Source of the DNA: Sulfurospirillum diekertiae
GTDB lineage: Bacteria; Campylobacterota; Campylobacteria; Campylobacterales; Sulfurospirillaceae
NCBI RefSeq assembly: GCF_002309535.1
Contig: NZ_CP023275.1
Location: 2,418,001 to 2,482,000 of the forward strand
Direction: 5' to 3'
Length of the DNA stretch: 64,000 nt
Within the stretch, counting starts at the first letter, position 1; every line of letters starts with the position of its first letter. Position numbers and translations under genes: made by a program. Below the pieces are notes generated by a model. The model worked only from the letters and a program-made list of their open reading frames with translations, was not told where the DNA came from and made no database searches. This document shows, one piece after another, positions 3,330 to 37,425 of this stretch.

Positions 3330-5033
3330 CTAAAAGAGAAAATAGCGTTGAGTCATCGGCAAATGCGTCATCGCCTTAGAATGAATGATGTTTCCATTCA
3401 CACGCACTTCATAGGTCTCTGGATTGACATGAATATCACCCACAAAATCATTGAGTTTCATAGATTTTTTACTTAAATTTCGCGTGTTTTTAACCGCAAC
3501 CAAACGCTTAGCAATATGCAATTTTTCCGCTAAATGATTTGTAATGGCCGCTTGAGAAGTAAAGATCACACTGATTTGACTGGGAGCCTTACCCAAAGAG
3601 CCAAACATTGGCCGATAAAAATTAGGTTCGGGCGTAGGAATGGAAGCATTGGAGTCACCCATCATACTCAGCGCAATAAAACCACCTTTTAAAATCATTG
3701 TGGGCTTTACGCCAAATAAGGCACGATCCCATAGAACTAAATCTGCCATTTTCCCCACCTCAACACTGCCAACAAGTGTATCAATACCACATGCAACAGC
3801 TGGATTGATGGTGTATTTGGCGATATAGCGTTTAATGCGAAAATTATCGTTTCGCGCCGTGTCTTCTTCTAAGGAACCTCGTTGTGTCTTCATACTGTGT
3901 GCAACTTGCCATGTACGCATAATAACCTCGCCGACTCTTCCCATCGCTTGCGAATCTGAACTTGTCATAGAAATTGCCCCAATATCGTGTAAAACATCCT
4001 CTGCTGCAATGGTATTGCCTCGAATCCGCGATTCGGCAAAGCTCACGTCTTCTGGGATTTTTGCACTCAGATGATGGCATACCATTAACATATCCAAATG
4101 CTCTTCAATCGTGTTTTTGGTATACGGTAAGGTCGGATTGGTAGAGGAAGGCAAAATGCTCTCTAAACCCGCTACTTTCATAATGTCAGGAGCATGCCCT
4201 CCACCTGCACCTTCAGAATGAAAAGTATGAATTGTACGCCCTTTAAAGGCATTAATCGTATCATCCACAAAACCTGATTCATTGAGCGTATCGGTATGAA
4301 TGGCTACTTGAACATCCATATCATCGGCAACCTGTAAGCATGTGTCAATGGCGTGTGGTGTAGTACCCCAATCTTCATGGAGTTTTAAACCCATTGCACC
4401 CCCTTCAATTTGGCTCTTAAGCGCTTCGTAACTGCTGGAGTTTCCTTTGCCCATAAACCCAAAGTTAAGTGGTAAATCATCCACCGATGCAATCATCTTC
4501 GCCAGATTCCACTCCCCCGGTGTGCAAGTAGTGGCATTGGTTCCTGTATTGGGTCCCGTACCGCCACCAATCATCGTTGTGATGCCACTGGCAAGTGCTT
4601 CATGAATTTGCCCCGGTGAGATAAAATGGATATGTGAATCAATGCCCCCTGCGGTAATAATTTTGCCCTCCGCCGATAAAATCTCCGTATGCGCTCCTAT
4701 TTCCAAGCCTTCGGTAATACCATCGCAATTATTGGGATTGCCACTTTTGCCAATAGCGCAAATAAGCCCTTCTTTGATGCCAATATCGGCTTTATAAATA
4801 CCTGTATAATCCATAATAATTGCATTGGTAATAATCAAATCCGCACTGGCTATGGCCGTAGGCGACTGGCTCATCCCATCTCGAATTGTCTTTCCACCAC
4901 CAAATTTACTCTCTTCGCCGTAAACCGTATAATCTTTTTCAATCTCTGCGATTAAATCTGTATCCGCCAAACGAAATCGGTCATTACATGTAGGCCCATA
5001 CATTGATGCATATTTTGCTTTGGACAGTTTCAT
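3330..5033 (-). CDS. ureC: Urease alpha (catalytic) subunit
   Basis: 567 residues, full length; this is the subunit called UreB in Helicobacter. Numbering matches the Klebsiella enzyme: H134 and H136 (IDSHIHF), the carbamylated K217 (GLKLHEDWG), H219, H246 (IHTDTL), H272 (HTFHSEG), flap C319 (MLMVCHHL) and D360 (SSDSQAMGR). All dinuclear nickel ligands and catalytic residues are present, so the enzyme should be active. It hydrolyses urea to ammonia and carbamate in the cytoplasm. Its ATG overlaps the stop of the fused small subunit by 4 nt, implying coupled synthesis of the two structural subunits. Confidence 0.98.
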
Positions 5034-30267: not shown

Positions 30268-30367
30268 GCGGGGGTATGTGACTCTGGTGTGCACCACGGC
30301 CTTCAAAGCCGATTGGGTGGGCGGTTGACCGTCTGCTGGTAGGTTCGATTCCTACACCCTCTCGCCA
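30268..30367 (+). tRNA. selC: tRNA-Sec (anticodon TCA)
   Basis: A 100-nt tRNA with encoded CCA. The anticodon loop CTTCAAA (TCA at 30303-30305) is closed by CGGC/GCCG. The long extra arm (about 30312-30337) and the T arm GTAGG-TTCGATT-CCTAC are clear. The 8-bp acceptor stem GCGGGGGT/ACCCTCTC has one mismatch at the second pair and one G-T wobble, which is the only oddity. It decodes UGA as selenocysteine, as needed by fdhA in this window. Confidence 0.93.
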
Positions 30368-33470: not shown

Positions 33471-33596
33471 GATAAAAACAGTATAGACGAATTTCAAAAA
33501 AAGCTTCAAAAATATTTCTATATGAAATCTTTTACTGAGTCAACGTAGCCACAAAATTTTTCATCTCTTGTCACCCATTTATTTAAAAAATTTAGC

Positions 33597-33602
33597 TACA
33601 AT
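33597..33602 (+). promoter_or_regulatory. Candidate -10 box (TACAAT) of the mgtA leader
   Basis: Transcription would begin near 33609, directly before the first leader stem at 33615. No clear -35 is visible, as is common in this phylum. Confidence 0.45.
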
Positions 33603-33614
33603 TCTACGCAAATA

Positions 33615-33772
33615 AAACCACCTAAAAAGAAAGGAGCAGTCATGGACGATCACCCGAGTTCTCGTAAAGTCTGCTCCTTTGTAGGTGGTTTGTTTTTGCC
33701 CTGCACAAAACTTTAAATCAGCCGACTCTAAGCCCTAAACCACCTTCTTAACATTATAAGAAGGAATGAGCT
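33615..33772 (+). promoter_or_regulatory. Structured mgtA leader: double-stem hairpin, alternative pairing and RBS-masking hairpin
   Basis: Stem 1 pairs AAACCACCTA (33615-33624) with TAGGTGGTTT (33682-33691). Stem 2 pairs AAAGGAGCAG (33630-33639) with CTGCTCCTTT (33671-33680). A T-rich run (33689-33696) follows, so the unit resembles an intrinsic terminator. A second copy of AAACCACCT (33737-33745) could pair instead with 33683-33691. That copy overlaps the hairpin CCTTCTTA/TAAGAAGG (33743-33750 with 33757-33764), which buries the mgtA ribosome site (AAGGA, 33761-33765). All pairings are read directly; the switching mechanism is inference. Confidence 0.7.
33642..33716 (+). CDS. 24-residue leader peptide upstream of mgtA
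   Basis: The ATG has a near-ideal AAAGGAG five nt upstream. The peptide begins MDDHPSSRK and has two cysteines and a hydrophobic middle (VGGLFLP). Its ribosome site is the 5' arm of stem 2, and its codons cover the 3' arms of both leader stems, so translation and leader folding exclude each other. An acidic-proline start recalls MgtL of enterobacteria (MEPDP...), where such residues destabilise ribosomes at low Mg2+. Homology is not claimed. Confidence 0.55.
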   Translation: MDDHPSSRKVCSFVGGLFLPCTKL

Positions 33773-36487
33773 ATGTTCAAATATGACTATTTTTTTCACA
33801 CCTTGGTGCCTGCATTTTTGCCAAAAAACTTTAAAGCATCCAAGCAAAATATCGCCAGTACACAGTCTAGCACCCACAAACTCAAAGAACTTGCAACCTG
33901 CTCCAAAGAGGAGCTCTTTGAAAAGCTTGGTAGCTCTGAAAAAGGGTTAAGCAAGCATGAGGCGCACAAACATCTTTTAAAATTTGGGGCGAATATCATT
34001 TCGGAAAACAAAAAAGCCAACCCTTTGCTGGTTATTTTTGAAAATATTAAAAATCCATTGACACTCATGCTTATCGTTCTTGCCAGTGTTTCATTTTACA
34101 TGGACGATGTACGAACCGCTGTTGTCGTAGGAGGCATGACGCTTCTGAGTGTTGCGCTCTCTTCCATGCAAGAATTTCGTTCCAGCAAAGCGGCTGAAAA
34201 ACTCAGCAGTATGGTCTCATCAACAGCAACGGTACTCAGGCAAAATGATGAACCCAGTTCAGATGAAATCACTACCCAATCCAATCATAAAATCCATGAA
34301 TCTCACTCTCAAACCATTGAAATAGCCATCAAAAAGATTGTACCTGGCGACATTGTCCATCTGAGTGCAGGTGACATCATCCCCGCCGATCTGAGAATCA
34401 TCAGCTCCAAAGATCTCTTTTTAAATCAAGCCTCACTGACAGGTGAAGCGATGCCTGTGGAAAAAGTTGCCATCAATGAACCGCATGAAATTGAATCCAT
34501 GATAAGCGCACATAATATCTGTTTTATGGGTTCCAGTATTGAGAGTGGAACAGCGATTGGCGTTGTGTGTACCACAGGAAAAGAGACCTATCTTGGCTCC
34601 ATTGCCAAAGTGATTGAGAGTGCGGCGGAACCAACAAGCTTTGATATAGGCATCAAAAAGTTTACATGGTTGATGCTTCGATTTATGTTTATAATGGTGC
34701 CGGTGGTGATGCTGGTCAATGGCTTTTTAAAACATGATTGGATGGGTGCCTTTTTATTTGGACTCTCTGTTGCCGTGGGGCTTGCTCCTGAAATGCTACC
34801 GATGATCGTCACAGTCAATTTAAGCAAAGGTGCCTTTGCACTCTCAAAGCAAAAAGTCATTGTTAAAAAGCTCAGTGCCATTCAAAATTTTGGAGCAATG
34901 GATATTTTATGCACCGATAAAACAGGCACACTTACCCAAGATAAAATTATCCTCGAACAACATGTCAACGTCAATGGCGAGAAATGTAACCATGTTTTAG
35001 AATTAGCCTACTTAAACAGTTTCCATCAAACCGGCTTAAAAAACCTTCTAGACGTCGCTGTTTTGGAGCACTCTGAAATCGAGGGATTGGCAGTTAATGA
35101 ATTTCCCAATAAAGTAGATGAAATTCCTTTTGATTTTAACCGCAAACGAATGTCCGTTGTGGTTGGTAAAACCGACAATTCACATCTTCTCATCACCAAG
35201 GGTGCTGTCGAAGAGATGGTTAAAGTCTGCACACATGTTGAAAAAAATGGTGAGATTTTACCACTGGATACTACGATGTACAGTGATATTTTTAATCTGG
35301 TTAATGAATACAACAATGATGGTTTTAGGGTTATTGCCGTCGCCTACAAAAACATACCCAATTCTCAACAAGCCTATGCAATCCAAGATGAATCCCAAAT
35401 GATTTTGGCAGGGTTTATGTCCTTTCTTGACCCTCCCAAAGAGAGTGCAAAAAAAGCAATCAAAATGTTAAATGAGTACGGCGTCAGCGTTAAAGTTCTC
35501 ACCGGTGACAATGAACGTGTCACGACAAAAATCTGTAAAGATGTGGGGTTGGAAATTACTGCTATTTACCAAGGAGCTGACATTGATGCGATGAATGAAG
35601 AGGAGCTCAAACTTGCTGTTGAAAAAGCCAATGTTTTTACCAAACTCTCCCCTGATAATAAAGCACGCATTGTCAGTGCCCTCAGACAAAATGGTCACAC
35701 CGTTGGGTTTATGGGCGATGGGATCAATGATGCCCCTGCCCTTAAACTCGCTGACGTGGGTATCTCGGTCGATACCGCCGTAGATATTGCCAAAGAGACC
35801 GCTGACATCATCTTACTGGAGCGCAGCCTACTTGTGTTAGAACAAGGTGTCTTGTTGGGGAGAAAAGTGTTTGCGAATATCATCAAGTACATCAAGATGG
35901 GATCAAGTTCAAATTACGGGAATATGTTTAGCGTGGTAGGAGCCAGTGCCATTTTGCCTTTCATTCCCATGCACCCGATTCAAATCGTCACCAATAACTT
36001 TTTATACGATCTCTCTCAATCCACAACGCCAACCGATCATGTGGATGATGAACTGATCAAAAAACCAAAAAAATGGGATATTGCCGATATTAAAAACTTT
36101 ATGCTGATCGTTGGACCTACAAGTTCAGTGTTTGATTACATTACGTTTGGTGTGATGATTTATGTGTTTGATGCGTGGCATAATGAAGCACTGTTCCAAA
36201 CAGGATGGTTTGTTGAGTCTCTCATCTCACAAACACTGATTGTACACATTATTCGAACTGATAAAATTCCATTTTTTCAAAGTACCGCAAGTTTGCCGGT
36301 TATCTTGATGACGGCGAGCATTATGTGTTTAGGAATTTGGTTGCCTTTTTCTCCGTTTGCCTCATCCTTAGGACTGGTTGCCTTACCTACGGAATACTGG
36401 AGTATCTTAGTGGTGATGATGATAGGGTATATCTTTTTAACGCAAAGTGTTAAAATGTACTACATCAAGAAATTTGCTAGAATTTAA
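33773..36487 (+). CDS. mgtA: Magnesium-translocating P-type ATPase (P3B, MgtA type)
   Basis: 904 residues, normal for the family. The actuator motif is LTGEAMPVEK, the phosphorylation site DKTGTLTQ (Asp near residue 382), and the nucleotide-domain hinge MGDGINDAPAL. The membrane motif PEMLPMIVTVNLSKGA is diagnostic for MgtA/MgtB ATPases. About ten membrane segments are visible. It imports Mg2+ down its gradient with ATP hydrolysis. Its start codon lies 8 nt after an AAGGA box masked in a hairpin, behind the leader peptide, so control by Mg2+ or translation status is likely. Confidence 0.96.
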   Translation: MFKYDYFFHTLVPAFLPKNFKASKQNIASTQSSTHKLKELATCSKEELFEKLGSSEKGLSKHEAHKHLLKFGANIISENKKANPLLVIFENIKNPLTLMLIVLASVSFYMDDVRTAVVVGGMTLLSVALSSMQEFRSSKAAEKLSSMVSSTATVLRQNDEPSSDEITTQSNHKIHESHSQTIEIAIKKIVPGDIVHLSAGDIIPADLRIISSKDLFLNQASLTGEAMPVEKVAINEPHEIESMISAHNICFMGSSIESGTAIGVVCTTGKETYLGSIAKVIESAAEPTSFDIGIKKFTWLMLRFMFIMVPVVMLVNGFLKHDWMGAFLFGLSVAVGLAPEMLPMIVTVNLSKGAFALSKQKVIVKKLSAIQNFGAMDILCTDKTGTLTQDKIILEQHVNVNGEKCNHVLELAYLNSFHQTGLKNLLDVAVLEHSEIEGLAVNEFPNKVDEIPFDFNRKRMSVVVGKTDNSHLLITKGAVEEMVKVCTHVEKNGEILPLDTTMYSDIFNLVNEYNNDGFRVIAVAYKNIPNSQQAYAIQDESQMILAGFMSFLDPPKESAKKAIKMLNEYGVSVKVLTGDNERVTTKICKDVGLEITAIYQGADIDAMNEEELKLAVEKANVFTKLSPDNKARIVSALRQNGHTVGFMGDGINDAPALKLADVGISVDTAVDIAKETADIILLERSLLVLEQGVLLGRKVFANIIKYIKMGSSSNYGNMFSVVGASAILPFIPMHPIQIVTNNFLYDLSQSTTPTDHVDDELIKKPKKWDIADIKNFMLIVGPTSSVFDYITFGVMIYVFDAWHNEALFQTGWFVESLISQTLIVHIIRTDKIPFFQSTASLPVILMTASIMCLGIWLPFSPFASSLGLVALPTEYWSILVVMMIGYIFLTQSVKMYYIKKFARI

Positions 36488-36510
36488 AACAAAGCGTATA
36501 GGAGTCTGTC

Positions 36511-37425
36511 TTGGGAAATTTTACGGAAGAAATGGGGATGGAAGAAGAGAGTACAGCAAAGACCAAAAGAGCTGTTAACAAAAGTATTTGGGTCAGTGCT
36601 TTTGTCAATCTCTGTTTATCTATTTGCCAAGTTATTATTGGTATTGTATCAGGTTCACAGGGTTTGATTGCTGATGGTATTCACTCTTTATCAGATCTAG
36701 GCGCTGACTTTGTCGCCCTTGTGGCGGCATGGAAAAGTCAAAAAAAGGCAGATACACATTACCATTACGGTTATAAACGCTATGAAAACTTAGCTTCTAT
36801 GATTTTAGGTGGATTGCTTTTAGTGGTAGGCATTGGCATGGTCTGGTCGGCAGTGCATAAGCTCCAAACGCCAGAATCTATTCCAACGGTGCATCTAATA
36901 GCACTTTGGACGGCACTGGGTTCACTCATGGCAAAAGAGTTGCTCTTCCGCTATATGTTAGCGGTTGCCCAAAAAGTGAAATCCAGTATGTTGATTGCCA
37001 ACGCTTGGCATGCAAGATCGGACGCGGCATCGTCTTTGGTTGTCGCCATTGGTATTGTTGGAAACCTTGCAGGTTTTCCTATTCTTGATCCTATCGCGGC
37101 TTTAATCGTTGGATTTGTTGTGAGTAAAATGGGATGGAAATTTTTATGGGATGCCACACAAGATTTGTTAGATAAATCCATCAGCGAAGATCAAGTAGAC
37201 GCTATTGCTGCCGAAATTGCTGCAACACCCGGTGTCATTGGATTTCATCAGTTAAAAACACGCAAAGCAGGTGATTTGATTTTGGCTGATGTCCATTTGG
37301 ATATTGATGGTTCCATTACCGTAACAGAAGGTCACATCATAGCCAAAGCTGTCAAAGCCAATGTTATGTCCAAACATCCAGTGCTTTATATTATGATCCA
37401 TGTGGATCCAGTATTGAAAAAATGA
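36511..37425 (+). CDS. Cation diffusion facilitator family transporter
   Basis: 304 residues from a TTG with AGGAG well placed; the ATG seven codons later has a poorer site. Six membrane segments are predicted. The CDF metal site HSLSDLGADF in helix II and HARSDAASS in helix V show the HxxxD and DxxxD-type ligands. A cytoplasmic C-terminal domain follows (GVIGFHQLKTRKAGDLILADVHLDIDG). It exports a divalent ion (Zn, Fe, Mn or Co) by proton exchange. It lies 23 nt after mgtA and is possibly co-transcribed. Confidence 0.93.
   Translation: MGNFTEEMGMEEESTAKTKRAVNKSIWVSAFVNLCLSICQVIIGIVSGSQGLIADGIHSLSDLGADFVALVAAWKSQKKADTHYHYGYKRYENLASMILGGLLLVVGIGMVWSAVHKLQTPESIPTVHLIALWTALGSLMAKELLFRYMLAVAQKVKSSMLIANAWHARSDAASSLVVAIGIVGNLAGFPILDPIAALIVGFVVSKMGWKFLWDATQDLLDKSISEDQVDAIAAEIAATPGVIGFHQLKTRKAGDLILADVHLDIDGSITVTEGHIIAKAVKANVMSKHPVLYIMIHVDPVLKK

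Follow-up and report, generated by a model that had tools for sequence, protein, structure and literature searches.

The magnesium pump gene mgtA of Sulfurospirillum diekertiae is preceded by a small foldable RNA that carries a tiny open reading frame (ORF) and is a real leader of this gene. By analogy with enterobacterial systems, this leader probably switches the pump on at low magnesium, and we consider it fairly probable that it acts as a Mg2+-responsive translational attenuator, run by the leader peptide and working like mgtQ of Salmonella. This reading is preferred because of two precedents: the ribosome drop-off at the acidic-proline start of MgtL, and the competition in mgtQ between one pairing (2:3) and two others (1:2 and 3:4). 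The leader was found in the window, which is the whole 64,000-nucleotide stretch of DNA that was analysed, and all positions given below refer to its plus strand unless otherwise indicated. For the model, the leader can be divided into four putative regions: region 1 (33615-33639), which contains the Shine-Dalgarno (SD) sequence of the leader ORF, region 2 (33671-33691), inside the ORF, region 3 (33737-33745), and region 4, the SD sequence of mgtA. A direct reading of the sequence between 33301 and 34200 bore out all the elements and coordinates given in an initial annotation of this DNA.

The mgtA gene (33773-36487) encodes a 904-residue Mg2+-importing P-type ATPase of the MgtA/MgtB type, which matches the profiles TIGR01524 (1133 bits, with an equivalog cut-off of 610.75) and NF011702 (1138 bits). 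The genome contains two CorA-family genes outside the window (G000:C1:1910001-1910864 and 1577973-1578515); mgtA thus probably serves as a further route of Mg2+ uptake, which fits with tight, inducible control. A cation diffusion facilitator gene (36488-37425) begins about 24 bases past mgtA, and such a gene is also found 3' of mgtA in genome G012, discussed below. It is probably co-transcribed with mgtA and may be under the control of the mgtA leader. From the sequence, an extended -10-like promoter element, TAGCTACAAT, is predicted at 33593-33602, which would place the transcript start near 33608-33610, immediately 5' of region 1. Promoter-like elements with a similar spacing to region 1 exist in two relatives, L004 (GATAGAAT) and G012 (TAGATAGAAT). 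Three further features of the window were recorded in passing. On the minus strand, a sigma-70-like site (10/12, 33780-33753) that may be a chance occurrence overlaps the mgtA SD hairpin; a match (96 bits) to the Rfam family of the 5' ureB sRNA (RF02514), a family known from Helicobacter, lies at 4598-4886 (+); and a selenocysteine tRNA (RF01852) is located at 30268-30363 (+), downstream of where an MMPL-family exporter gene starts and ahead of a small ORF.

The leader ORF (33642-33716) has 24 codons, with the translation MDDHPSSRKVCSFVGGLFLPCTKL*. It begins with MDDHPSSRK, and its ribosome site AAAGGAG (33630-33636) ends 5 nt ahead of the ATG. When the whole 2.8 Mb genome was searched for AAGG followed after 4-11 nt by ATG-GAN-GAN-NNN-CC, which corresponds to an M[D/E][D/E]xP start, the single match was at this leader. 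Pro5 is the sole proline in the N-terminal part of the peptide. In G012, codons 1-13 of the leader differ from those of the window at four places, all of them synonymous, while the last eleven codons contain four amino-acid changes. That the N-terminal codons changed only synonymously and the C-terminal ones did not suggests that the N-terminal part of the peptide is under selection.

The minimum free energy fold of the leader (-49.8 kcal/mol) consists precisely of two nested helices and a 3' hairpin. The inner helix of 10 bp has as its 5' arm AAAGGAGCAG (33630-33639), which includes the leader SD, and as its 3' arm CTGCTCCTTT (33671-33680), in which CTCCTTT (33674-33680) locks that SD. The outer helix joins AAACCACCT of region 1 (33615-33623) to AGGTGGTTT of region 2 (33683-33691), the switch strand within the ORF, and past it comes a T-rich tail (33692-33697), possibly a lineage-specific intrinsic terminator. 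These are exactly the nested stems, the locked leader SD and the mgtA ribosome-site hairpin that the initial annotation had described. The fold is far more stable than expected, with z = -4.6 and none of 200 shuffles as stable (z = -4.4 in a separate computation). The duplex between the 5' untranslated region and the ORF was stronger than that in 1000/1000 shuffles both in the window and in L004; in G012, p was 0.07-0.14.

The mgtA SD, AAGGAA (33761-33766), is sequestered in the fold by hairpin 3:4 (33743-33764), formed by CCTTCTTA and TAAGAAGG. Region 3 (33737-33745) is a second copy of AAACCACCT and thus an alternative partner of region 2, and the three bases at its 3' end make up the outer arm of hairpin 3:4. 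The presence of two identical partners for AGGTGGTTT, as originally noted, withstood scrutiny: an exact 9-mer occurring twice together with its reverse complement was found in 0/3000 dinucleotide shuffles (0.27% for an 8-mer and 3.5% for a 7-mer). Pairings 1:2 and 3:4 are compatible with each other, while 2:3 excludes both.

Close relatives of this mgtA are rare. We searched for the gene in the family, the class, two further families and a plasmid collection, and found it in 5/44 genomes of the family, 7/397 of the class and 4/228 of another family; when about 85,000 species were scanned, two further relatives emerged, at 82% and about 81% identity. The sequence of L005 (Sulfuricurvum) ends 58 bases before mgtA, and it was left out of the leader comparison. 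The support for the architecture comes from three independent leaders: that of the window, shared with two near-identical genomes, that of G012, which is partly eroded, and that of L004, a Sulfurimonadaceae MAG with an MgtA 82% identical to that of the window. Among 399 genomes of the order, a search with the layout pattern returned just the three near-identical genomes and two matches in unrelated-looking sequence.

The L004 leader, whose fold is also significantly stable (z = -3.4), is the most informative of these. Its peptide, MDEYPSITVDLLFGGKKYT, starts with MDEYPS, has the start M-D-[D/E]-[H/Y]-P-S in common with that of the window and, like it, contains a Gly-Gly specified by GGTGG. The leader start is locked here too, by a different sequence: a 17-position hairpin of CCACCAAATGAAAGGTC with GACCTGTTATTTGGTGG, with one mismatch, in which the SD is paired as AAAGGTC/GACCT. 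Region 1 is kept as CCACCAAAT, and a second CCACC stands immediately before the mgtA hairpin (CCTTCT...AGAAGG), overlapping the mgtA anti-Shine-Dalgarno sequence. When the 5' arms were swapped, the L004 ORF reached -26.7 kcal/mol with its own arm and -11.1 kcal/mol with that of the window; the reverse swap was less telling (-26.6 kcal/mol for the window ORF with the L004 arm, against -34.9 kcal/mol for the native combination). Alifold counts for 1:2 were left out, since MAFFT aligns two parts of L004, region 1 and the SD hairpin, in the wrong place.

In G012, mgtA is a tandem duplicate (L016, G012:C5:18779-24417), and the leader is carried by the copy that is 92% identical to the mgtA of the window. 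The fold of this leader is unremarkable (z = -0.9), and CCACC of region 1 has become CCTCA. The claim that relatives keep both pairings thus holds for L004, but in G012 the first partner is mutated. The GGTGG of region 2 is unchanged in 5/5 leaders, and hairpin 3:4 recurs in both L004 and G012. It is also found, as CCTTC/GAAGG, before the upstream mgtA copy of G012 (78% identical to that of the window), which has no leader; the two copies of this genome may therefore respond differently. This leaderless copy and the leaderless mgtA of genome G288 also lack CCACC beside the SD. The predicted conservation of the leader start was found in both relatives, as MD[D/E]xPS with a leader ORF in L004 and as the first 13 residues in G012. 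The recurrence of leader ORF, start, pairings and ribosome-site hairpin in the diverged L004 likewise strengthens the earlier impression of a translation-coupled element.

For the 2:3 pairing, the comparison with L004 reveals two compensatory pairs, with GGTGGCA/TGCCACC in L004 and GGTGGTT/AACCACC in the window. Across the alignment, 2/9 pairs are altered on both sides, and 91.7% of cells are paired, compared to 25-58% when the partners are slid against each other; in G012 the pairing is perfect over 8 pairs. As the two compensatory pairs stem from one divergence, they constitute modest evidence for 2:3. The L004 ORF reaches -14.0 kcal/mol with its own region 3 and -9.1 kcal/mol with that of the window, while the window ORF pairs about equally with the L004 3' region and its own, so this swap test is one-sided. 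The energy of the 2:3 duplex alone is unexceptional against shuffles (p 0.06-0.22).

The initial annotation had also proposed that region 2 chooses between its two partners. The pairing potential and the compensatory 2:3 pairs speak for this, but by computation a change to the second partner is slightly unfavourable. As long as the leader is untranslated, the fold leaves the second AAACCACCT without any pairing to AGGTGGTTT (P about 0), and a choice would therefore arise only when the 5' partner is unavailable. We computed partition functions in which the ribosome was modelled as blocking. Without a ribosome, the leaders of the window and of L004 both form 1:2 and 3:4 in full. With only the footprint of a ribosome at codons 2-5 masked, 1:2 is still able to form around it. 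Removing the 5' part from the computation allows 2:3 to form, but leaves it 1.3-2.2 kcal/mol weaker than the ensemble dominated by 3:4 at 37 C, and at 28 C the deficit of a forced 2:3 is 2.1-2.6 kcal/mol. Even with 2:3 forced, the GG of the mgtA SD is just 14-29% unpaired. Since 2:3 is computed to be weaker than 3:4, the anti-sequestor would have to win kinetically; it could do so by virtue of the order of transcription, region 3 being synthesised about 20 nt ahead of the mgtA SD.

In the mechanism that we propose, the leader would exist in two states: 1:2 together with 3:4, in which mgtA is off, and 2:3, in which mgtA is on. With enough Mg2+, when ribosomes would pass quickly, or with no ribosome at all, 1:2 would shut the leader start and 3:4 the mgtA SD. 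At low Mg2+, newly initiated ribosomes would stall or drop off at the acidic-proline start (MDDHP in the window, MDEYP in L004). Such ribosomes would occupy region 1 while RNA polymerase transcribes region 3, allowing region 2 to pair with it. This would pull the CC(U) off the GG that it covers in the mgtA SD, and the mgtA ribosome site would open. The leader elements, their conservation and their capacity to pair are present in the sequences compared; that the ORF is translated, that ribosomes are destabilised on it, and that Mg2+ is the signal, we infer by analogy.

Several other explanations of the same elements deserve consideration. The 1:2 hairpin followed by TTTGTTTTTG could constitute an intrinsic terminator, blocked by a ribosome at the leader start, with the mgtA SD hairpin being secondary. 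The window hairpin is very stable and is followed by a T-rich run, and leader-peptide attenuators of this type have been proposed for leu, trp and met genes of Campylobacter jejuni (PMC3847290). However, the inner stem encloses a loop of about 30 nt, the T run is absent in L004, which has CAAAAAATATAC instead, and is shortened to TTTGTTTGTG in G012, and a terminator scan was negative at the 1:2 hairpin. A terminator is therefore unsupported as the ancestral read-out, contrary to the initial description of a terminator-like hairpin, and we consider a transcription attenuator unlikely. Rather less likely still is Rho-dependent termination as in Salmonella mgtA, where full translation of the leader would expose the C-rich stretch at about 33700-33742 and drop-off would hide it via 2:3. 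This is the closest regulatory logic described for a Mg2+ P-type ATPase (PMC11282234, PMC11552253), the segment ATCAGCCGACTCTAAGCCCTAAACCACC is indeed C-rich and G-poor, and such termination could operate alongside the translational switch; yet a conserved rut-like stretch is not evident in L004, whereas the ribosome-site hairpin is conserved.

It is also conceivable that the ORF is incidental or non-regulatory, and that the RNA itself senses Mg2+ as a riboswitch, or that the 5' hairpin merely stabilises the mRNA, given that it is long, stable and near the inferred transcript start. We regard this as improbable: codons 1-13 are conserved with synonymous changes only in G012, L004 keeps MD[D/E]xPS and the SD despite a different RNA sequence, and no Rfam riboswitch match was found. 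As for a classical attenuator that senses charged tRNA (His, Pro, Ser or Cys), short leader ORFs are typical of that class, but the gene downstream encodes an ion pump, and the leader peptide has no run of a single amino acid, only M-D-[D/E]-[H/Y]-P-S being common to the window and L004, which makes this explanation very improbable.

The Rfam searches separate the leader from the Mg2+ elements known so far. The E. coli mgtA leader (L034), included as a positive control, matched the covariance model RF01056 (Magnesium-II) at 125.8 bits, while in the same search no RF01056 match was found in the window leader or its relatives; the leader is therefore not the enterobacterial Mg element. With the gathering threshold and with E up to 5, Rfam returned for the leader only a minus-strand match far below the gathering score, which we took as chance. 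The M-box (ykoK) riboswitch also controls Mg2+ transporter genes, and, in keeping with the initial annotation, no match to it was found in the window leader. An inspection of more distant mgtA leaders (G009, G417, G447 and records from proteobacteria) turned up a ribosome site with a convincing acidic-proline ORF only in the enterobacterial MgtL controls; Paraburkholderia has one GTG candidate leader ORF (MRPEPGLLGARS), 526 bases upstream of mgtA. Since, of the proteobacterial mgtA genes that we inspected, only those of enterobacteria have convincing MgtL-type ORFs, the leader is likely to have a separate origin, although the sample is small, and it is plausible that the leader evolved independently of the enterobacterial one. 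The mgtA tree does not resolve the number of leader gains or losses. It is possible, and we suggest it tentatively, that a Campylobacterota lineage evolved, independently of Enterobacterales, both an acidic-proline ribosome-instability sensor of Mg2+ and a translational anti-sequestor whose single switch strand has two identical partners to choose from.

In the literature consulted, destabilisation of ribosomes by an acidic-proline peptide as a means of sensing Mg2+ is confined to enterobacteria such as Salmonella and E. coli. If our reading is true, it would argue that the unstable ribosome serves generally as a sensor of Mg2+ and has been recruited to this role repeatedly in evolution, since the same peptide feature and a three-way pairing would stand before a Mg2+ pump in another phylum, on an unrelated RNA. 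It would also extend the short list of leader peptides proposed in Campylobacterota to the control of Mg2+. At under 170 nt, the element would offer a clean test bed for the idea of sensing by ribosome instability. Our searches of the open-access literature turned up no Mg2+ leader described for Campylobacterota, the only leader peptides found for the phylum being those of amino-acid genes (PMC3847290). The leader was initially judged to look undescribed, and this holds for the leader itself, but a closely similar way of working has been published for Salmonella mgtQ (PMC8092293).

Within the phylum, the nearest known systems are LeuL, TrpL and MetL of C. jejuni, leader peptides proposed for amino-acid biosynthesis genes (PMC3847290). 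They share with the present leader a short ORF; unlike it, they have several codons for the sensed amino acid, precede biosynthesis genes and are proposed to act by transcription termination. The resemblance to MgtL is closer. The acidic-proline start of MgtL (EPDP) destabilises E. coli ribosomes at low Mg2+, leading to drop-off (PMC11282234, PMC11552253). In both MgtL/RF01056 and the leader described here, an acidic-proline peptide (MDDHP in the window and MDEYP in L004, against MEPDP, or MDPDP in Klebsiella) with an SD precedes mgtA, a stem (stem A in RF01056) sequesters the leader SD, and downstream stems are mutually exclusive. The defining feature of MgtL is its alternating prolines at codons 3, 5, 7 and 9 (PMC6460261), whereas the window leader has one early proline instead of four, and it has a ribosome-site hairpin where the read-out of Salmonella MgtL is Rho-dependent termination.

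The closest parallel is mgtQ of Salmonella (Asp2, Pro4, Glu5), which opens the mgtB ribosome site through 2:3 as opposed to 1:2/3:4, with a translation-only read-out (PMC8092293). Switches of the mgtQ type need the acidic codons, and the effect is countered by L31. The mgtQ ORF has 8 codons inside the mgtC-mgtB operon, as opposed to 24 codons in our case, close to where the transcript is inferred to begin, and its region 1 lies inside the ORF, while here region 1 is upstream of it and the SD of the leader ORF is itself locked by 1:2. In mgtQ, 2:3 is more stable than 3:4 (-16.4 versus -12.26 kcal/mol; PMC8092293), unlike in the window leader, where it is computed to be less stable. The two leaders belong to different phyla and are likened by layout, not by sequence homology. 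In each, a short ORF whose early codons include acidic residues and a proline stands ahead of a gene for a Mg2+ P-type ATPase, 1:2 together with 3:4 and 2:3 are mutually exclusive, and 3:4 occludes the ribosome site of the transporter gene, which would make the read-out translational in the window leader as it is in mgtQ.
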